From positions 1 to 64,000 of the forward strand of contig NZ_JACUTS010000004.1 in the NCBI RefSeq assembly GCF_014859695.1: a DNA stretch of 64,000 nucleotides. The letters run 5' to 3'. Source of the DNA: Sulfurimonas sp. (GTDB taxonomy: Bacteria; Campylobacterota; Campylobacteria; Campylobacterales; Sulfurimonadaceae). Under the pieces are notes generated by a model. The model searched no databases. It saw only the letters and a program-made list of their open reading frames with translations, and was not told the DNA's origin. A program made the translations under genes and the position numbers. Numbering within the stretch: position 1 is the first letter of the stretch; the number at the start of each line of letters is the position of its first letter. Shown one piece after another: positions 3,590-52,553 of the stretch.

Positions 3590-3931
3590 TTATCTTTTAA
3601 CGGAGGCGCACTCTATGCAAAGCCCGTTTTCGGGCATAATTTCAAGTCTCTCTTTTGCGATGTCATCGCCGCAGTCTATACATTCGCCAAAGGTTTTGTT
3701 GTGGATTCTATTGAGTGCGGAGTTTATTTTTTTGAGTTTTATCTCGGCTTGTCTTAAGTTTTCCAGTGCCATGTTTTGCTCTTGCATTGCCTCTTGTCTT
3801 GTAAGTCTGCCTAAAGAGACGTCGGGGCTTACGGGTTTTGTTCTCTCTTTTAAAGAAGCAATACCTTCTTCAACCTCACTCTTTAAGTTTTCAAGTTTTT
3901 CTTTAAAGTATTGTAATTTTTCATTCTGCAT
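3590..3931 (-). CDS. TraR/DksA family C4 zinc-finger protein
   Basis: 113 aa: an N-terminal coiled coil (about residues 1-80) followed by a four-cysteine zinc finger, CIDCGDD...CIEC, near residues 88-110. This is the DksA/TraR fold, whose members reach into the RNA polymerase secondary channel. The coiled-coil tip reads DVSLGRLTRQEA and lacks the DxxDxA motif of true DksA, so it belongs to the common small TraR/DksA-like subfamily whose targets are poorly known. It has its own transcription unit; structured repeat copy A lies directly upstream. Confidence 0.8.
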   Translation of the reverse strand: MQNEKLQYFKEKLENLKSEVEEGIASLKERTKPVSPDVSLGRLTRQEAMQEQNMALENLRQAEIKLKKINSALNRIHNKTFGECIDCGDDIAKERLEIMPENGLCIECASVKR

Positions 3932-43889: not shown

Positions 43890-46123
43890 AGTTCCAAAAG
43901 CACGGTATCTCTTCTTGTGGCTTCAAACTTCTTGCATCCGCTCTCAAAAGCTCCGCTCTCGCCTATCAAGATGCACTTGTGTTTTGCCCTCGTAACGGCG
44001 GTATAGATGAGCTTTGTATTGTGCATAATGTAGTGTGAAAAACTCATGGGAATGACGACAATGTCATACTCCATCCCTTGTACTTTATGGACGGTTAGCG
44101 CGTAAGAGAGCATAAGATGGCTCTTCAACTCCTCATACTCATAAACTACCACGACATCCTCATTCGGGTAAAAAACGAACACCTGTTCATCCTCCTCTTC
44201 TATCTTAAAAAAAAGTCCGCTCATACCGTTAAATATGCGCCTGATTGCCGAATCTTCGCCATTTTTATACCCCTCGCCGCTCCATGAGGTCATGTTTTCA
44301 TTTTTCGTATGCACCACTTTGTCCATAAGCCTAAACTCTACGCCGCCCTTTTTTACGCACTTTTTGGGGTTTGGGTTGAAGTAATCCTGCAAGACGGTGT
44401 TTAAGTTGTTTACGCCCAGAGTTCCACCCTTCATGGGAGTAATAACCTGAAAATAGTTCAGATACTCTTTTATCTGCTTATTGTTGAGTCTGTACCTTGC
44501 TTTTTCTATTGATTCTACGACCTTGTGGGCTATCTCGGCAACTATTTGCGCGGAGTTATTCTCTCTCATATCCTGCAGCTCTTTTTGAGAGAGTTGGTTT
44601 TTCAAAACATAATAGTTCTGCATAGAAACATCCAAAAACTCAAAATCTTCATATGTTTTTCTATACTCGGGAACAATCCCCTCTCGTATATCGTTTGCGA
44701 TAACCGTTATGGCTTTGTCTTCACTCTGTCTGTAGATTTTTGTAAGCTTTACAATGGGTGCGAGCTCCAATGTCAAAACATCGCTCAATACATTCCCCGC
44801 ACCGATGGGAGGGAGCTGCGCATCATCGCCTACGATAATCAAGATGGCATTTTTGTCTATTTTTGAAACCAGCCTTGCAAAGAGGGAGGAGTTTATCATG
44901 GAGGCTTCATCTATTAAAATAACCGAGTAGGGAAAGTTGTCCCTGTCTTCAAACTTAACAAGCAGACTCTGGATAGTTGCGCTCTCATACCCCGTCGTAT
45001 CGGCGATGCGCTGCGAAGCTATACCGCTAAGAGCACATGTCATTATCTCTTTTTTGTCATATTTTATATTGAGCAAATCCAGAACTGTTTTAGAAGTCGT
45101 ACTCTTTCCCGTTCCGGCGTAACCTACCAAAAAGAGTATTGATGCACCATCGTTTATCTTCTTTACCGCCTCTTTTTGCTGCTCCCCCAACTGAAGCTCT
45201 TTCTCTTTTAAGAACTCGTCAATATTTTTTACAAACCCGTCGTTTTGCAGCTTTGCTCTTCTTTTAAACTCATCATATAAATATTTCTCCGCATCATAAA
45301 GGCGCGCAGGAGAGACACGATTGTTTTTCATCAAAACAATGCTCCCCTCACTAACCCGCTCAATCAAAATCGCCTCATAGAGATAATTTTTGTCACTAAA
45401 GAGAAGAAGTTCATTAAGCTCGCTAAAGAGTATCTCTTTTGCCACACATGAGTTGCCCTGCTGTTCGCAGTAGTTGAGCAGTACATAATCCATTGCCGAA
45501 CCTATGCGGTTTTCATCGCTTGGATTTACCCCCATCTTAAGGGCGAGCTCATCGGCACGTTTGAAGCCTATGGAGTTTATGGAGGTTAAAACGTAGGGAT
45601 TGTTTTTTATCTTTGCACAAGGCTCTTCAACGTCCCTCATGGCAGTTGCAATAGTTGTTAAAAATGCGGGGGAAACATCGTAAGGGCTTAAAAACTCCCC
45701 TATTTCACGCATGGAGCGGAACTTTTTCCATGAAGCCTGAATCTTCTTCAGCCGCTTCTCTTTGATGCCGCTAAACTCCAAAAGTCTCTCTATATCGTTG
45801 TCTAAAACCTCGACAAGCCCCTCGTTTCCGAAATGCTCTATAAGCTCAGCCGTAAGTTTTTTCGTAAACCCTTTTACGATTTTGTTGAGAAAGAAAAAGA
45901 GTTCGTTTTGGTTCACTTTTATCTGCTCAAACTTAAAAGTTTTGCCATACTTTTTATGCTCTTCCCAGTGCCCCTTAAGAGTAACCGCAGAATCCTTAAG
46001 ATGTGAGACAGCGCTCTCAAAGTAAGAGCCGCTAACCTTCTCCCCGCCTTTCAAAACGGCAATAAAAAAAGCCTCTTCTTCAAAAAGGATTTTGTCAATC
46101 TGACCTATTATGGTTTCATTCAA
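43886..46123 (-). CDS. recD2: RecD2-type SF1B DNA helicase
   Basis: 745 aa. An N-terminal OB/helix-hairpin-helix region (EFSGIKEKRLKKI, NSIGFKRADELALKMG) precedes the SF1 core: Walker A VGYAGTGKSTTSKT (~335), ILIDEASMINSSL (motif II), VGDDAQLPPIGAGN (motif III), and the UvrD_C2-like end LTVHKVQGMEYD plus YTAVTRAKHKC (motifs V-VI). A 5'-3' helicase like RecD2 (stand-alone, not RecBCD). It overlaps the upstream DUF4143 ATPase gene by 8 bp. Its last codons run into the solo repeat end, which may have altered the C-terminus. Confidence 0.88.
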   Translation of the reverse strand: MNETIIGQIDKILFEEEAFFIAVLKGGEKVSGSYFESAVSHLKDSAVTLKGHWEEHKKYGKTFKFEQIKVNQNELFFFLNKIVKGFTKKLTAELIEHFGNEGLVEVLDNDIERLLEFSGIKEKRLKKIQASWKKFRSMREIGEFLSPYDVSPAFLTTIATAMRDVEEPCAKIKNNPYVLTSINSIGFKRADELALKMGVNPSDENRIGSAMDYVLLNYCEQQGNSCVAKEILFSELNELLLFSDKNYLYEAILIERVSEGSIVLMKNNRVSPARLYDAEKYLYDEFKRRAKLQNDGFVKNIDEFLKEKELQLGEQQKEAVKKINDGASILFLVGYAGTGKSTTSKTVLDLLNIKYDKKEIMTCALSGIASQRIADTTGYESATIQSLLVKFEDRDNFPYSVILIDEASMINSSLFARLVSKIDKNAILIIVGDDAQLPPIGAGNVLSDVLTLELAPIVKLTKIYRQSEDKAITVIANDIREGIVPEYRKTYEDFEFLDVSMQNYYVLKNQLSQKELQDMRENNSAQIVAEIAHKVVESIEKARYRLNNKQIKEYLNYFQVITPMKGGTLGVNNLNTVLQDYFNPNPKKCVKKGGVEFRLMDKVVHTKNENMTSWSGEGYKNGEDSAIRRIFNGMSGLFFKIEEEDEQVFVFYPNEDVVVVYEYEELKSHLMLSYALTVHKVQGMEYDIVVIPMSFSHYIMHNTKLIYTAVTRAKHKCILIGESGAFESGCKKFEATRRDTVLLEL

Positions 46124-47399
46124 TATTTAAACCTTCATCAGCCTCAAGCAAAAACCTATCTATACTTAGCACTTCCACACCACTGAGTGCTTCATTTACA
46201 TCATAAGTTATCAAGATACATCTGCTATCCTCTTTTTTGAACTCTCCAAAAGCGTTTAACTCTCTTTTTTTTGTTTTTTCATCACTTATATCATACGCAA
46301 CTTGATACAATCTATTTTGCGTATAAAAATCGACCTCTTGATTATCTTTCCTGTATGTGACTTTTTCATCTTTTTTATATAGTTCGTTAAATACCAAATT
46401 TTCCAAGGCAGTACCTAGATTTTTTGTTCTGTTTACTCCTAGATTTAAAAAACCGTTATCGCTCAAATAGAGTTTTTTAGCAGATTTTATTTGCGAGGTC
46501 AGTTTATCGTGATGTGCAGAAATAGTATGGATTAAAAAATTGTCTTCAAAATAGCCGATGTACTCTTTTATCATTTTTGGATCAACACTTAGTTTTTTAG
46601 CCAATGAGCTGTAATTTAGCGTGGTTGCAGCATTTGAAACAAGATAATAAAAGAGGTCTCTTATGATTTGAGAGCTTTTAATGTTGTATCTTGGAACTAT
46701 ATCTTTTAGTATGATATCTTCAGCCACATTCATAAGATACTCTTTTTTTAGCATCTCATCGTTATTTGACAGCACTGAGTAGTATCCGCCCCATTTGAGG
46801 TACTCATCCATAGCTCTGCTTATCTCGATTTTGTTTGCCGCTCTTTGAATTTTTGTGGAAAAATCTATCTTTTTAAAATGTAAAAATTCCCTAAAATTAA
46901 AACTATGTATCTCAAGCCTCAGCACTCTGCCAGTTAAAACGGTTGCATAGTTTGAAGTTAAAAGCGATGCGTTTGAACCGGTTATAATAAATTTGATATT
47001 GGAGTTCTCATATTTTGATTTTACAAAGATTTCCCAATTTTGAAATATTTGCACCTCATCTATAAAAAAATATATCTTCTTCTCTCTGTTTGGATTTGCA
47101 AGTTTTAAGTACGCATCAAAAATCACTCCAAGATATGAAGCGTCATCCTTATATGGTATAAATTCCGGCTTTTCCAAGTTGATGAAAAATATATTTTTTG
47201 CTTCAACACTTTTTAATAGCTCACGAATGAGCAATTTTGCCAGAGTGCTTTTGCCTACTCGTCTCGCACCAACAAGAGCCAAAATCTCTTTTGTGCCAAG
47301 AAATTTCAGAGCTTTATCTAAAATTTCTCTTGAAACAAAGTCGCCATATATATTCTGATTTACCCAATGTACATTATCTTCTAAAAGAATTGAATCCAT
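46116..47399 (-). CDS. AAA ATPase with DUF4143 domain
   Basis: 427 aa. N-terminal P-loop domain: ALVGARRVGKSTLAKLLI (~residue 45), IYFFIDEVQIFQNWE as Walker B, KFIITGSNASLL as sensor. C-terminal DUF4143 with a PD-(D/E)XK-like end (ENLVFNELYK, VTYRKDNQEVDFY). These archaeal-type ATPases are scattered by transfer and often tied to mobile regions or toxin systems; function unproven. Co-transcribed with recD2. Confidence 0.87.
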   Translation of the reverse strand: MDSILLEDNVHWVNQNIYGDFVSREILDKALKFLGTKEILALVGARRVGKSTLAKLLIRELLKSVEAKNIFFINLEKPEFIPYKDDASYLGVIFDAYLKLANPNREKKIYFFIDEVQIFQNWEIFVKSKYENSNIKFIITGSNASLLTSNYATVLTGRVLRLEIHSFNFREFLHFKKIDFSTKIQRAANKIEISRAMDEYLKWGGYYSVLSNNDEMLKKEYLMNVAEDIILKDIVPRYNIKSSQIIRDLFYYLVSNAATTLNYSSLAKKLSVDPKMIKEYIGYFEDNFLIHTISAHHDKLTSQIKSAKKLYLSDNGFLNLGVNRTKNLGTALENLVFNELYKKDEKVTYRKDNQEVDFYTQNRLYQVAYDISDEKTKKRELNAFGEFKKEDSRCILITYDVNEALSGVEVLSIDRFLLEADEGLNIE

Positions 47400-47525
47400 A
47401 TTTATATCCTAAATAAAGAATGTATTCCTAATAATACACTACTTTTAAGAATTTTTAGCTTTTTTTGAATATGAAAAGATGTTCATGCATAGTTTTTAGA
47501 CATATGCTTAAAAAATAGCTGTGTA

Positions 47526-47570
47526 AAACACTACTTGAGAGGGGGGGTGCCCTCGGATGTGCAGTAGTTC
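47526..47570 (-). terminator. Terminator-like stem-loop after the secreted-protein pair
   Basis: On the minus strand ACTACT...AGTAGT encloses GAGGG...CCCTC with a run of seven C, and is followed by GTTTT. It lies downstream of the 357-aa gene and upstream of the DUF4143 gene's start. Confidence 0.4.
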
Positions 47571-47593
47571 AAATTTTCCCTGTCGTAGTATTT

Positions 47594-48667
47594 TTATTCT
47601 ATGGCATTTTTGGCTGCAGTTTGTTTGTCCATACAATATTTAACCATTGAATAATCTGTCCCCCATTTGTTTGAACAAAAATTTTTAATTTCGTAGCTGT
47701 AGTAGCTTAAATCTATTGTATTTTTAGCCTTTGTTTGTTTATCTATGCAATATTTGACCATTGAATAGTCAACTCTCCATTTGTCACTACAACTATTTTT
47801 AATGATAGTGTCAATCCTGTTTTTTTCTTTATTATAATTTTGCATGGCATTATTATTTTCAGAAATTATTTTTTGTTTTTTCTTTTTAACACTAGTTGCT
47901 TTTTCGGCTGCAATTTTTAATTTTTTTTGTTTTTCTTTGAATTTATCAGAGGATGCATACGCTATTTTATCCTCAACTTCGGTTAATGATAAATTTTCAT
48001 TTAAACTTGTTTTTTTGCAACTGTTAAAAGCATGTTCATGAATTACTTTGGTTTTATATTCTGATGCTTTGATTTTACAATATTCATTTATTTTATCTCG
48101 TATCTTAAGTCTATCTCTTTGCTTTTTCATTTCTTCAAACTTTTTCTTTTCTATCTGTTGTTGCTTGGCAAGCTTTTCTTTTTTTAATTTTTTTTCTTTA
48201 TTAAGATAATATTTACGGTATGTTTCTTCTTCTAAGTCTAAATCAAAGTTTATTTTTATAGAAGTAAAAATTAAATCTGATGGGTAGGAGGTTAATTCAC
48301 TAATATTGTTTCGTTTTTTAAAATAAATTTTTCTCTTAATTGTTTCTGATTTTGCTACTTCAATATCATCATAAGTCATAAATGATATTGAAATTTTTGT
48401 ATAAATAAAATCACTGTGTAACCCCTTTGCAATTGCACCAAAGTCAGCCCAATTTCCAGTTTGTTCTTCTATTGATTTTAAAACAAAGTTCCAGGCTACA
48501 ACATTATCAAGATAATTTATTTTTATATTTGTATCTATAGCAAAAGGCGTTGTAGGGTTTTCTTTATTAAGTTTAAATAACTCGGTTGTTTTATATTTAC
48601 GATATTCTTCTAAATCAATAGCCTCTGTAAGATTAAAAAGTATAGAAATTATTAAAAAAAATTTCAT
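47594..48667 (-). CDS. Secreted hypothetical protein with C-terminal CxxxW/YC repeats
   Basis: 357 aa. Signal peptide (MKFFLIISILFNLTEA), a beta-like N-terminal half, a Lys/Glu-rich coiled coil (~170-290), and two ~40-residue C-terminal repeats, CSDKWRVDYSMVKYCIDKQT and CSNKWGTDYSMVKYCMDKQT. The paired cysteines could form disulphides in the periplasm. AT-rich. It overlaps the upstream 218-aa gene by 4 bp. I do not recognise the family beyond the short YC repeat, which is found in various exported proteins. Confidence 0.6.
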   Translation of the reverse strand: MKFFLIISILFNLTEAIDLEEYRKYKTTELFKLNKENPTTPFAIDTNIKINYLDNVVAWNFVLKSIEEQTGNWADFGAIAKGLHSDFIYTKISISFMTYDDIEVAKSETIKRKIYFKKRNNISELTSYPSDLIFTSIKINFDLDLEEETYRKYYLNKEKKLKKEKLAKQQQIEKKKFEEMKKQRDRLKIRDKINEYCKIKASEYKTKVIHEHAFNSCKKTSLNENLSLTEVEDKIAYASSDKFKEKQKKLKIAAEKATSVKKKKQKIISENNNAMQNYNKEKNRIDTIIKNSCSDKWRVDYSMVKYCIDKQTKAKNTIDLSYYSYEIKNFCSNKWGTDYSMVKYCMDKQTAAKNAIE

Positions 48668-49320
48668 CTATTACTGCCTTTGTTTTCCGTCGTAGTAGAT
48701 AATTCAACTTTTGAATTTTTTACTAGTAAATTAAACCTTTGCAGTAATTCTTCTGTCGCATTGTAAAACTTTGCATTATCTAAATCTTTATAAGAGAACA
48801 TGTAACTTTGCTCTCTGCCTTCAATTATGATTTTATTTTTATCTCCTCTGAAATAATCTATTTTAAGTATGTCATAAATAATTCTATCTTTAACATATAA
48901 AGTTGGAGTATTTTCATATTTGTTCTTTAAATATTTTTGCTCCTCTTTTTTTGTCATTTTTGTAGTATTGCTATGGTTTATATTATTGCTTTTAGATATT
49001 TTTGCTGGGGAAGGACTGTATGGTTCTTTTAAATATCCCCCATTATCATCTTTTTTGCCCATGTTTGCTTTTACTTTTATTCTGGCAATATCAGCGTTAA
49101 CTTTTTCATCTAATAATTTTCTTTTTTTATCATATTTTTTATGAATGTTTTCCCTCTCTTGGTCTAATTGAACAAGTTCCCTCTCTAGCCTTGCTTCTTT
49201 AGAATACATTGCTTTTAATCTTATTTCTTCGAGAGCCAAAACCGATTTAAAATACTCATCATTCCCAAACATACATTGACTTAAAATAATAATAAGATAA
49301 ATAATTGACAAAAATTTCAT
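48664..49320 (-). CDS. Secreted hypothetical protein, partner of the repeat protein
   Basis: 218 aa. Signal peptide (MKFLSIIYLIIILSQCMFG; the Cys could make it a lipoprotein), a Lys/Glu coiled coil (~25-85) and a C-terminal globular part (TLYVKDRIIYDILKIDYFRG, GREQSYMFSYKDL). No family recognised. The stop overlaps the start of the next gene (ATGA), so the two are made together. Confidence 0.6.
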   Translation of the reverse strand: MKFLSIIYLIIILSQCMFGNDEYFKSVLALEEIRLKAMYSKEARLERELVQLDQERENIHKKYDKKRKLLDEKVNADIARIKVKANMGKKDDNGGYLKEPYSPSPAKISKSNNINHSNTTKMTKKEEQKYLKNKYENTPTLYVKDRIIYDILKIDYFRGDKNKIIIEGREQSYMFSYKDLDNAKFYNATEELLQRFNLLVKNSKVELSTTTENKGSNR

Positions 49321-49509
49321 GCAAGTCCTTTTTTTACATCAGTGCTTATAATTTTTATAAAATAAAAAAACACATTTAAAATAGATTAATATGGTATCAT
49401 AATAAACTAAAGGCTGTGATGAATACTTGTATTTTGGTTAATTTAAGGCGTATTAATAATTTAAAAAGACATATTGTTAAATGATAAGATACAGAAAGTA
49501 TTTAAAAGT

Positions 49510-49950
49510 TTAAATCTCTCCAGTAGCACCATCTTTTAAAATCTCCAATGACTCCTCAAAACCCTCTGCCTTACCACCAACAAATTCATTAAAACCATAC
49601 TCTTCTATTTCAACAGATTCACAAATATCAATTTTCCAAAGATTTCTGTACTCTTTTGCTGCAGTCTCAATTTGCTTTAGAACATCGGCATGAACTATTT
49701 TTTCAATAAAACCTTTTGACATCAATTGCAATGTTTTTAAATCCAAATGTTGTAAATTTTCTACCAGTTCAAAGTCCTTAAATTCATCACTATTTAAAAC
49801 TTCATCAAGCATCTCTTGGGAAACCTCAACATCATACAGCTCATCATCTTCATCAAAATTTATACAAACAATTTTAAATGGAAAATAAAAAGATGGATTA
49901 TCCAGCAAATATCTTAAAATTTTCAGTGCTAATTCTTTTGAGATAGGCAT
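49510..49950 (-). CDS. Acidic hypothetical protein
   Basis: 146 aa, strongly acidic (NFDEDDELYDVEVSQE). No signal or membrane segment. Not recognised. It lies 57 bp downstream of the DpnI-like gene on the same strand, so it could be co-transcribed, but nothing in the sequence links it to restriction. The 189-bp gap to the secreted pair shows nothing but AT-rich promoter-like DNA. Confidence 0.6.
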   Translation of the reverse strand: MPISKELALKILRYLLDNPSFYFPFKIVCINFDEDDELYDVEVSQEMLDEVLNSDEFKDFELVENLQHLDLKTLQLMSKGFIEKIVHADVLKQIETAAKEYRNLWKIDICESVEIEEYGFNEFVGGKAEGFEESLEILKDGATGEI

Positions 49951-50007
49951 TACTTAACTCCTTTTTTTGGATCTTAGCAAAAAAGAATAGAAAACAAAGC
50001 GATATAT

Positions 50008-50775
50008 CTATTGTAATATATATTTTCCTAGACCCTCAAATTTTAAGTAATTTTTATCTCTTAAGACTTGAAGCTGTTGCCTGATTTTTGCTTGAACATT
50101 ATTGTTATCTGGATGCTTGAGTTTAAGATAAGTTTCAAATTTATAAATATCATGGAGCGTAAAATCTTTTTTATCAAGTTTTTCAATACATTTTAAAATA
50201 TCAAGTATCCAACCTTTGGATTTGATATTATGAGACTCTTTTAAAAAACTTGTTTTATGCCACTCTTCTAAAATTTTATCTTTACTTTGTATCTTGGAAT
50301 CTTTTACATAAAATATTTTACCACTATTTGGAATAGTATCGAGAAGAATATTGCATCCTACCCATCCCGCTCTTCTAGCTGTTGAAGAGAGCGGGTTTCG
50401 CTTTTCAATGATTTCTGGAATAAAAAAATGTTTGGGAATAACTATAAAATTAGAGATATCAAGAGTGTTTTTATCATAATTCAAAAAGAAGAAGTTAGGA
50501 TTTGATTCACTTTGCAGGCGTTCAATCATCGTAGTATAGGCACCATCGACAATTTTTTTACCCATTTTGTCTTTTTTACTTTTTAGCTCATAATCTTCAC
50601 TGCATTTAGAACAATAAAAATCAGCAACAGGTTTGTTGTTTTCATAATTTGAAAGATAACTTCCGCAATTTGGACAAAAAATATTTTTTTCAACCCAACT
50701 TTCAGTAAGCACCCTAGCTATTTGCGATTTATTTTCATACCCCGATGATAGCGATATATCAAATCCTAAATCCAT
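50008..50775 (-). CDS. dpnI: DpnI-type methyl-directed restriction endonuclease
   Basis: 255 aa, the length of pneumococcal DpnI (254). N-terminal PD-(D/E)XK nuclease with a zinc ribbon: CPNCG (34-38) and CSKC (55-58), catalytic D52 and E63-L-K65 in ADFYC...YELKSK. Also NPNFFFLNYDK, SSTARRAGWVGCNI, and a C-terminal winged helix (VQAKIRQQLQVLRDKNYLKF). The resemblance to DpnI runs through the whole protein. DpnI cuts GATC only when the adenine is methylated, so it destroys Dam-methylated phage or foreign DNA, and the host cannot carry Dam. No methylase is beside it. Confidence 0.95.
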   Translation of the reverse strand: MDLGFDISLSSGYENKSQIARVLTESWVEKNIFCPNCGSYLSNYENNKPVADFYCSKCSEDYELKSKKDKMGKKIVDGAYTTMIERLQSESNPNFFFLNYDKNTLDISNFIVIPKHFFIPEIIEKRNPLSSTARRAGWVGCNILLDTIPNSGKIFYVKDSKIQSKDKILEEWHKTSFLKESHNIKSKGWILDILKCIEKLDKKDFTLHDIYKFETYLKLKHPDNNNVQAKIRQQLQVLRDKNYLKFEGLGKYILQ

Positions 50776-50836
50776 TTTATAAACGGCTGATACTTTGTAA
50801 AGCTGGCTTGGTTTAACGGTGCGGTCATCTTCTCTC
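50762..50836 (-). pseudogene. Possible truncated DNA adenine methylase amino terminus
   Basis: On the minus strand, with GGAGAG upstream, a frame reads MTAPLNQASFTKYQPFIKWI then TAG; MGEK in front is an alternative start. YQPFIKW followed by GGK is how many Dam-type methylases begin. The frame ends where the GGKR motif should be, and the dpnI ATG overlaps the K-W codons. It may be the stump left when a dam gene was replaced by dpnI, or a chance leader ORF. Confidence 0.45.
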
Positions 50837-50884
50837 CCATGGTTTTATATCAGCAAAAGTTTAATAAAATATTTTTTAATAGTT

Positions 50885-50913
50885 AAAAAATATGACAAAT
50901 AGTCATATTTTTA
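50885..50913. terminator. Bidirectional hairpin terminator
   Basis: AAAAATATGAC, a 5-nt loop and GTCATATTTTT form a perfect 11-bp stem with T-runs on both strands. It lies after the 59-aa gene and next to the second copy of the glyQ 3' end, so it may be the original glyQ terminator. Confidence 0.7.
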
Positions 50914-50938
50914 CGCCTTTACCCTCTTTTTTATCTCA
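50903..50938. repeat. Direct repeat of the glyQ 3' end (outer copy)
   Basis: 36 bp, 31 of 36 identical to 51664-51699. In the glyQ frame it still reads EIKKRVKA and TAA, against DRNKRVKA and TAA in glyQ. It brackets the zeta/59-aa module together with the inner copy. Confidence 0.75.
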
Positions 50939-51110
50939 TATACTCTTTTGGCATCTGCTGTGTTATTGTTCCGTCTGGAAGTTGAAAGTAGATAGTTCCA
51001 TTCTTGGCATAAACATTTGCAACACCATTTTCCAAACTCTTTTTTTGAGCTTCTTTAACAGCCTTTGAAGCTATTTTTAAAATATCCATTTCAAGTTTTA
51101 AATCTTTCAT
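50931..51110 (-). CDS. 59-aa partner of the zeta-like protein (possible antitoxin)
   Basis: 59 aa, below the ORF-track limit: MKDLKLEMDILKIASKAVKE ... IYFQLPDGTITQQMPKEYMR. Its ATG overlaps the zeta-like gene's TGA (ATGA), a tight coupling seen in toxin-antitoxin pairs. The N-terminal half is helical. The stop codon lies in the glyQ-end repeat. Family not recognised; an antitoxin role is inferred from size and coupling only, and the usual epsilon antitoxin precedes the zeta gene instead. Confidence 0.65.
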   Translation of the reverse strand: MKDLKLEMDILKIASKAVKEAQKKSLENGVANVYAKNGTIYFQLPDGTITQQMPKEYMR

Positions 51111-51667
51111 ATCAATCCTTTTAAAAATTTATTGTACAAGTCATCTAAAAATATCTGCTCTTTATTAGCAACTAGTTCATAATTATCATCGCCGTTAAAA
51201 AATAGCATCCATTCATCAACCATTTCTTTATATGTATGATAAAAAAGTTTTTTACTTCTTATATATCTTCTTTTTATATCTTCGTCGGGTACATTATGTC
51301 CGCCATTGAGCACTCTGTTTCGCACTCTTAGTATATTTTCAACATCATTTTCTAAAAAAAGATATATCAATATTACCACGAATCCTCTATTTTTAGCTTC
51401 TTTTATAATATTTGCAAGATATTTTCCAGATAGTGTAGATTCTATCATAAAAGAACTCTCTTTGGAGAGGCTTACATGAAGCTGTTTAAAAAATTCTTTA
51501 CCCGCTTTTACTTTATATTTTTGGATATCTTGAGGATCATATTTTTTAGCTATTTCATCGGCATTTATGAAATAAAGATTATTTAACTCTACATAATTAA
51601 GTGCAAAGGTAGTTTTTCCGCTTCCGTTCGCACCTGCAATAATATACAGAGTTTTATCAGATTTCAT
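51107..51667 (-). CDS. Zeta-toxin-like P-loop kinase
   Basis: 186 aa from MKSDKTLYIIAGANGSGKTT; the longer track start lies inside glyQ. P-loop GANGSGKTT at residues 12-20, FINADEIAKKYDP (substrate Asp), a MIESTLSGKYL motif, RVLNGGHNVPDEDIKRRY and a final NKEQIFLDD. This is the chromosomal AAA/zeta-like family; zeta toxins phosphorylate UDP-GlcNAc. It begins 4 bp after the glyQ stop. Lies between direct repeats of the glyQ 3' end. Confidence 0.85.
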   Translation of the reverse strand: MKSDKTLYIIAGANGSGKTTFALNYVELNNLYFINADEIAKKYDPQDIQKYKVKAGKEFFKQLHVSLSKESSFMIESTLSGKYLANIIKEAKNRGFVVILIYLFLENDVENILRVRNRVLNGGHNVPDEDIKRRYIRSKKLFYHTYKEMVDEWMLFFNGDDNYELVANKEQIFLDDLYNKFLKGLI

Positions 51668-51699
51668 ATATTTACGCCTTAACCCTCTTGTTTCTATCA
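51664..51699. repeat. Direct repeat of the glyQ 3' end (inner copy)
   Basis: Covers the last glyQ codons, its stop and the ATG of the zeta-like gene. Matches 50903-50938 at 31 of 36 bases. The spacing, about 0.76 kb, is one toxin/partner module. Confidence 0.75.
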
Positions 51700-52553
51700 G
51701 CTTCCTGCGCTTTGTATAGTTCCGCACAGCCGCGTGAGAGTTCGCGGATTTTTAGAATGTAGTTTTGGCGTTCTGTTTGGCTGATGGCTTTTCTGGCATC
51801 TAGTACGTTAAAAGTGTTTGCTGCCATCATGCATAGGTCGTATGCGGGAAGAGGAAGTCCTGTTTCTATGGTTTTTAGGCACTCCTCACTTTTTGCGTTA
51901 AACTCTGCAAAGAGCATCGCGGTATCCGCTACTTCAAAGTTGTACTTGCTAAACTCTATCTCTGCCTCTTTGTGAACATCTCGGTAGAGTGTTTTTCCGT
52001 GCTCATTTTCGCCCCAAACTATGTCAAAAACAGTGTCCACGCCTTGAAGGTACATGGCTAGCCTCTCTGTTCCGTAGGTTATCTCAACCGCTACGGGACT
52101 GCACTCTATGCCGCCTACTTGTTGGAAGTAGGTAAACTGTGTCACTTCCATGCCGTTAAGCCAAACTTCCCAGCCAAGACCCCATGCACCGAGTGTCGGT
52201 GATTCCCAGTTGTCTTCTACAAAGCGGATATCATGGTTTTTTACGTCAAGTCCGAGATACTCTAACGACTTTAGGTAAAGCTCTTGAATGTTGTCTGGAG
52301 ATGGTTTGATGAGCGCTTGAAACTGGTAGTAGCTTCCTAAACGGTTTGGGTTTTCACCGTATCTTCCATCCGTCGGACGACGGCTTGGTGCCACATAAGC
52401 AACCGACCATGGAGTAGAATCGAGTGAGCGCAAAAATGTAGCCGGATGAAACGTTCCCGCACCCGCAGGAATATCGTAGGGCTGGACAATATTACACCCC
52501 TGTTTCATCCAAAATTCTTGTAGTTTTAGTAACATAGAGCTAAAAGTTATCAT
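51672..52553 (-). CDS. glyQ: Glycyl-tRNA synthetase alpha subunit
   Basis: 293 aa from [20 protein letters not shown] with AGAGG upstream; nine codons are trimmed from the track start. Class II synthetase core: [75 protein letters not shown]. Pairs with GlyS (not in the window). Its 3' end is duplicated 0.76 kb downstream around the toxin module. Confidence 0.96.

Follow-up and report, generated by a model that had tools for sequence, protein, structure and literature searches.

Probable scar of an allelic swap between DpnI-type and DpnII-type cassettes at the GATC restriction locus of Sulfurimonas

The question raised by this locus is how dpnI, the gene for a methyl-directed GATC endonuclease, came to lie directly behind the opening codons of a Dam-type methylase gene in Sulfurimonas, and whether those codons still have a role. 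The window analyzed here is the whole stretch of 64,000 nucleotides, and its features are given on the minus strand unless otherwise stated. The first-pass annotation had described the opening codons as a possible fossil of dam, left by a switch between DpnI and DpnII cassettes of the pneumococcal kind.

The dam start and the dpnI gene

The dpnI gene (50008..50775) is intact. Its product carries the catalytic domain PF06044 at residues 1-180 (E = 2.6e-83) and the winged-helix domain PF17726 at residues 186-252, both at full length, and scored 290 bits over residues 1-252 against the DpnI structure 4esj. In this alignment VADFYCSKCSEDYELKSKK is paired with VADFYCNHCSEEFELKSKK of 4esj, and the CPNC motif is conserved; the aligned residues are presumably the nuclease motif D...ExK and the zinc cysteines of DpnI. 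The gene therefore displays the features of the DpnI family, and cleavage of GmATC is predicted for its product.

The short open reading frame in front of dpnI (50766..50828) was found where the first-pass annotation had placed it. It starts at an ATG at position 50828, reads MTAPLNQASFTKYQPFIKWI and is ended by a TAG at 50768-50766, so that the dpnI ATG (50775) falls within it, and it corresponds to dam codons 1-19 except for a change in the last base. The ribosome-binding site claimed for it is also real, since a GGGAG at 50834..50838 gave a value of -7.3 kcal/mol compared with -0.4 kcal/mol at the dpnI start. No usable start was found further upstream in the dpnI reading frame of the window.

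The assignment of this stub to a Dam-type methylase was borne out by a 3,956-bp contig of the window's own assembly, termed C5, which was found by a D12-methylase search of that genome and which carries the start of an intact dam gene, identical to the stub over 55 bases (50826-50772). The Dam protein of this assembly opens with MTAPLNQASFTKYQPFIKWVGGK, identical at 19 of the 20 stub residues. The likeness among Campylobacterota Dam proteins extends well beyond the FIKW motif, as in the relatives' N terminus MTAPLNQSNFTKYQPFVKWVGGK. In the nearest relative with dam at this locus (G448), a continuous match begins at a zeta-like kinase gene, spans a small open reading frame and the upstream region, and reaches dam codon 18 (AAATGG); past this codon G448 goes on as dam, while the window becomes dpnI. 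The upstream region of dam has thus been retained ahead of dpnI, as the first-pass annotation had proposed. The peptide is only 20 residues long and could in principle resemble the FIKW motif by chance, but the 55 identical bases and the collinear upstream homology with G448 rule this out, leaving chance resemblance vanishingly improbable.

The zeta-like kinase gene (51107..51667) lies between glyQ (51672..52553) and dam or dpnI, and in G448 it stands ahead of an intact dam. The zeta-toxin-like kinase at the glyQ end and the small open reading frame that follows it (MKDLKLEMDILK...), which together span 50934-51667 and are both present in G448, are possibly a toxin-antitoxin or kinase pair.

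The dpnI gene itself is of mosaic origin. Codons 1 to ~40 (down to ~50640) were 75-87% identical to dpnI of G024 versus 45-65% to that of G012, while the remainder was 88-100% identical to G012 and mostly did not match G024. Recombination has thus shaped the window gene, and its 5' end arrived together with a stub. G024 has a 25-codon dam stub before dpnI, reading GTAAAATGGGTTGGCGTTAAGAGGGCTTAAAAATGGATTTGG, and a 27-bp deletion between the two AAAATGG repeats of that stub gives GTAAAATGGATTTGG, which is the architecture of the window with the frame kept. It is by such a deletion that the 18-codon junction would have arisen from a longer, G024-like stub.

Two alleles between glyQ and the AAA/DUF4143 gene

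The first 55 bases of contig C5 are those of window positions 50826-50772 (the dpnI/dam branch point, 50772..50826), and its last 55 are those of 47428-47374 (47374..47428, where the next gene starts), with order and orientation preserved. Overlaps of 55 bp also join C1/C38, C23/C35 and C31/C186 in the same assembly, so this length is that of the assembly k-mer. On the evidence of its two ends, C5 is an alternative route that connects two points of the window contig, and window positions 47,429-50,771 hold a DpnI-type allele in place of a DpnII-type allele. We also considered that the locus might have a second copy elsewhere in the genome and rejected this, because no third contig of the assembly contains either end sequence.

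The minus strand of C5 opens with GACCGCACCG..., encoding TAPLNQASFTKYQPFIKWVGGKRG..., and its Dam is intact except for the ATG, which is supplied by the window contig. The gene order is dam, a 197-aa open reading frame, the DpnII endonuclease gene, a small HTH protein, short open reading frames and a second methylase of the N6/N4 type (PF01555). Dam scored 245 bits against the DpnM structure 2dpm and 294 bits against TIGR00571, and the DpnII endonuclease scored 309 bits against PF04556. A Dam-type methylase and a DpnII endonuclease thus lie side by side, as in a DpnII-type cassette. The motif order of the second methylase looks unlike that of DpnA, and it may be of another type.

On the other side of the DpnI-type allele, ATGCATGAACATCTTTTCATATTCAAAAAAAGCTAA was found at 47490-47455. 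This segment (47455..47490) holds the last 11 codons (MHEHLFIFKKS) and the stop codon of the second methylase of the DpnII cassette, and the match to C5 was 97% over 118 bp. A shorter tail of the second methylase is present on the right side in G040, and in the complete genome G012 the gene that accompanies dpnI is fused to such a tail (EHLFVFKKS, followed by the stop). Because the scars derive from the outermost genes on both sides, the DpnI allele replaced the inside of the DpnII cassette.

Within the window's allele, dpnI is followed by a gene for a 146-aa protein (49510..49950), a frequent downstream partner of dpnI, which gave no match in Pfam, NCBIfam or PADLOC; it is probably a functional partner of DpnI. 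Two further open reading frames with signal-peptide-like starts, of 218 aa (48664..49320) and 357 aa (47594..48667), are extra to this allele; neither has a Pfam match, and they were found only here and not at the relatives' loci. The right flank common to both alleles is a gene for an AAA ATPase with DUF4143 (46116..47399). This gene, which borders the swapped stretch on the right, matches the PADLOC candidate defence gene PDC-S01 (E = 6e-102). The 146-aa protein was also seen behind dpnI in several phyla (Campylobacterota and candidate phyla).

The same locus was compared among relatives. Behind glyQ, dam is present in G047, G448, G356, G378, G424, G046, G056 and G004, in most of which DpnII and a second methylase are also visible, whereas dpnI takes this place in G040, G024, G012 and G035. 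The AAA/DUF4143 gene is present on the other side in G047 and G040. Either cassette is thus found between the same flanking genes, and in G047 a full dam-DpnII cassette lies between the same two flanks as in the window. In G012 dpnI stands at glyQ without a dam stub, and a stub is therefore not required. A third arrangement behind glyQ was observed in G021 (L130, 11000-15336), where a C5-methylase-like gene and an unknown gene are followed by the 146-aa dpnI partner without dpnI.

These data very probably reflect an allelic swap. The region from glyQ to the AAA/DUF4143 gene would once have held a DpnII-type cassette with dam, DpnII and the second methylase, and a DpnI-type cassette would have taken its place, so that dam is reduced to codons 1-18 at one edge and the second methylase to its last 11 codons at the other edge. 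As read from the DNA, the two scars, the alternative allele, the alternatives behind the same flank in relatives and the mosaic dpnI are all in place. Both alleles are present in the sampled DNA. The earlier reading of a scar of a DpnI/DpnII switch is thus upheld and can be refined, since the DpnII allele is not only ancestral but occurs in the same sample.

The segment common to both alleles has the length of the assembly k-mer, which is where misjoins occur, and the genome has the appearance of a draft or metagenome assembly, so an artificial join of the dam stub to dpnI was weighed. Such a k-mer overlap, however, requires reads that run from dam codons 2-18 straight into dpnI. Stubs of other lengths are arranged in the same way in independent assemblies and in one isolate, and a matching scar on the right side is present in the window, in G040 and in the complete genome G012. 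An assembly chimera is on these grounds very improbable and was rejected. A dedicated, reversible switch within one clone, with the dam and methylase stubs as recombination arms, would also account for both alleles in one assembly, for scars on both sides and for a mosaic dpnI that shows recombination at the dam-stub end. Against it, the stub offers only 55-58 bp of identity while the common flanks already provide far longer homology, neither allele contains a recombinase gene, and other contigs also branch at 55-mers, as expected of a mixture of strains: C13 ends within the window contig (3642-3696), and C9 and C19 share an end. These branches fit several strains in one sample and favour strain polymorphism over a programmed switch, which we consider improbable. 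The coexistence of the two alleles is probably between strains, and has no bearing on the rate of switching. The end of C13 (L212) marks another strain-variable spot (window 3591-3696), at which a different AAA-ATPase gene set is joined by a 55-bp overlap.

Across 397 genomes, intact dpnI was present in 16, two of which also have a strong dam, at a dam base rate of ~15%; exclusion between the two genes was not significant in this set (2 co-occurrences compared with ~2.4 expected). The two are the window's own assembly (G000), via the allele contig, and G320, on a 6.6-kb contig. In G320, a Sulfurovaceae metagenome-assembled genome, intact dpnI and a DpnM-like dam are on different contigs (L181 and L182), reflecting either mis-binning or true coexistence.

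Recurrent stubs and the expression of dpnI

A survey of 56 dpnI loci from named genomes, plus the window, revealed dam fragments directly ahead of dpnI in ~16 of the 56, three of them weak. Including the window, there were ~12 distinct clear junctions, at about dam codons 18, 25, 36, 38, 42, 55, 68, 70, 82, 85, 93 and 171, giving stubs of 18-171 codons; one of these came from an isolate, Flavobacterium celericrescens. The first-pass annotation had reasoned that finding the short frame conserved before dpnI in genomes without any history of dam at this place would speak against a scar. The stubs, however, consist of dam sequence and differ in length between loci. Behind dpnI, L066, L069, L093 and L100 carry fragments of the second methylase. 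The junctions differ within one well-supported dpnI clade (L093, L100 and L104), and the dpnI tree did not separate one origin of the stubs from several. In the stub common to L072 and L108, two synonymous and two non-synonymous changes in 70 codons were too few for an assessment of purifying selection. In L068 (5917-5989) and L081, from a Bathymodiolus symbiont and a Gracilibacteria contig, dpnI is preceded by dam fragments that come from the middle or the 3' end of the gene instead of its start.

The stop codon of the stub lies within -8 to +7 nt of the A of the dpnI start at 11 of the 12 junctions, compared with 5.0 expected from all frames (P = 3e-4, with the junctions taken as independent and the interval picked after seeing the data), and stop and start often overlap as TAATG or ATGA. 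The stub frame is +1 relative to dpnI at 10 of the 12 (P = 5e-4), L065 and L100 having another frame. A contrast similar to that in the window, with a ribosome site on the stub and practically none on dpnI, was observed in L067, L072, L095, L104 and L100. No such contrast was present in L079, L069 and L093, and in L079 and L093 a ribosome site precedes dpnI.

Because a ribosome site is present on the window stub but not on dpnI, the stub probably still functions, as a leader from which translation of dpnI is started. Ribosomes would load at the dam-stub site, as the dpnI ATG has no site of its own, halt at the TAG, 7 nt beyond the A of this ATG, and restart there; for this reason translation of dpnI would be coupled to that of the stub. 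Termination-reinitiation of this kind is the simplest reading of the positions of the stub stops. It could be instead that the stub is dead and left to decay, with dpnI translated on its own. The AAAATGG junction fits a simple deletion between repeats, the stub of L066 has decayed and is already broken by stops, and L059, like G012, has dpnI behind glyQ without a dam stub. Given how regularly the stubs stop at the dpnI start and keep the +1 frame, and that dpnI of the window has no ribosome site, we regard a dead remnant as rather unlikely. The term fossil therefore stands in so far as the stub is a remnant of dam, but as a ribosome-loading leader for dpnI it is probably not dead.

A palindrome, TATGAC-N5-GTCATA (50891..50907, no strand assigned), lies 62 nt before the stub ATG. 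In G448, G056, G004, G046 and G047 the same palindrome or a variant occupies this place before dam, and in G040 it does so before the dam stub. Several DpnII cassettes, among them C5, have a further copy downstream, ahead of the second-methylase end. The upstream element is absent from G024 and G378, because in these the dam start follows glyQ within a few bases. A loose form of the pattern was found 1-7 times per genome, versus 0-2 for a reversed control, and its other sites include radA in seven genomes, comM/yifB, an integron integrase, DinD, a C5-methylase operon, recA and an S24/CI-type regulator. In the window's own assembly, copies or variants (C87:40253, C121:1341, C151:5943, C79:10315 and C5:1188) accompany recA, radA, the S24/CI-type regulator, a C5-methylase operon and both dam/dpnI alleles.

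In all 14 genomes compared, a degenerate palindrome (2-3 mismatches in 12) was present 62-64 nt ahead of recA. Ahead of the S24 regulator, 12 of these genomes have one at a distance of 56-78 nt; the copy in G424 is weaker, and none was found in G035. Compared with shuffled half-sites, the recA copies gave a mean of 2.3 versus 4.3 (lowest control 3.1), and the S24-regulator copies a mean of 2.4 versus 4.2 (lowest of 200 controls 2.3). The palindrome is thus found both before recA and before the regulator's own gene, as for a LexA/SOS-type operator. Such a layout is what an SOS regulon under an S24 repressor would show, and from its position the palindrome is a candidate SOS/LexA-type operator, which suggests DNA-damage control of dam and dpnI. 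A promoter scan gave results no better than shuffles. Transcription of dpnI would proceed from the old dam control region and, as the palindrome is common to recA, radA and the S24 regulator, either allele may be induced by DNA damage. Taken together, we tentatively propose, at less than even confidence, that the dam start has been kept repeatedly because DpnI arrives without start signals of its own, and that it serves dpnI through termination-reinitiation under a DNA-damage-type operator common to recA and radA. If so, restriction of GATC, methylated or not according to the allele, would be part of an SOS-like regulon in Sulfurimonas.

GATC avoidance and comparison with known systems

GATC occurred at 0.31 and GGCC at 0.15 of expectation in 0.4 Mb of the genome (40 further contigs were sampled, four of them N only). 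In the window (1-64000) the values were 0.27 and 0.16, respectively, while other palindromic 4-mers were at 0.57 or more. The strong depletion of GATC is consistent with long exposure to GATC restriction, without proving long use, and the avoidance of GGCC may be tied to the C5-methylase/HNH operon on C79.

The swap between the incompatible DpnI and DpnII systems is a live polymorphism beyond pneumococcus and Neisseria, with both alleles in one assembly. Recurrent replacement with the dam start kept turns the fossil into a testable mechanism of expression, that is, of how a captured restriction gene gets translated. The operator common to recA and radA makes a damage-controlled restriction regulon in Campylobacterota directly testable. 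Within a literature partially covered by title and abstract, no paper was found on such a swap in Campylobacterota, nor on LexA, competence or GATC systems in Sulfurimonas.

Pneumococci hold either DpnI or DpnII (PMC3573125) and, as in Streptococcus pneumoniae, the Sulfurimonas systems are alternative GATC systems of opposite methyl specificity that are alleles of one locus (PMC3573125). Unlike in S. pneumoniae, the Sulfurimonas DpnI sits on a retained dam start, in another phylum and between other flanking genes. The second methylase may be a further difference, as it looks to be of another type than DpnA. In Neisseria, the leuS/dam locus contains drg, a GmATC endonuclease gene by which dam is truncated in several strains (PMC4269198, PMC516771). 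In both cases an endonuclease of the Pfam Dam-replacing family takes a dam locus beside a tRNA synthetase gene. However, whereas dam is interrupted in Neisseria, a whole DpnII restriction cassette was replaced in Sulfurimonas, and the dam start stays as an open reading frame with a ribosome site that ends at the dpnI ATG, with many stub lengths. The arrangement resembles translationally coupled leader open reading frames, in which an upstream frame has a ribosome site and a stop that overlaps the next gene's start, but unlike the known ones this leader is the truncated start of a displaced rival gene. The Sulfurimonas case belongs with the pneumococcal and Neisseria kind; what is new is the lineage, the swap within a full DpnII cassette with two scars, the recurrent dam stubs, their probable leader role, and the candidate operator common to repair genes.
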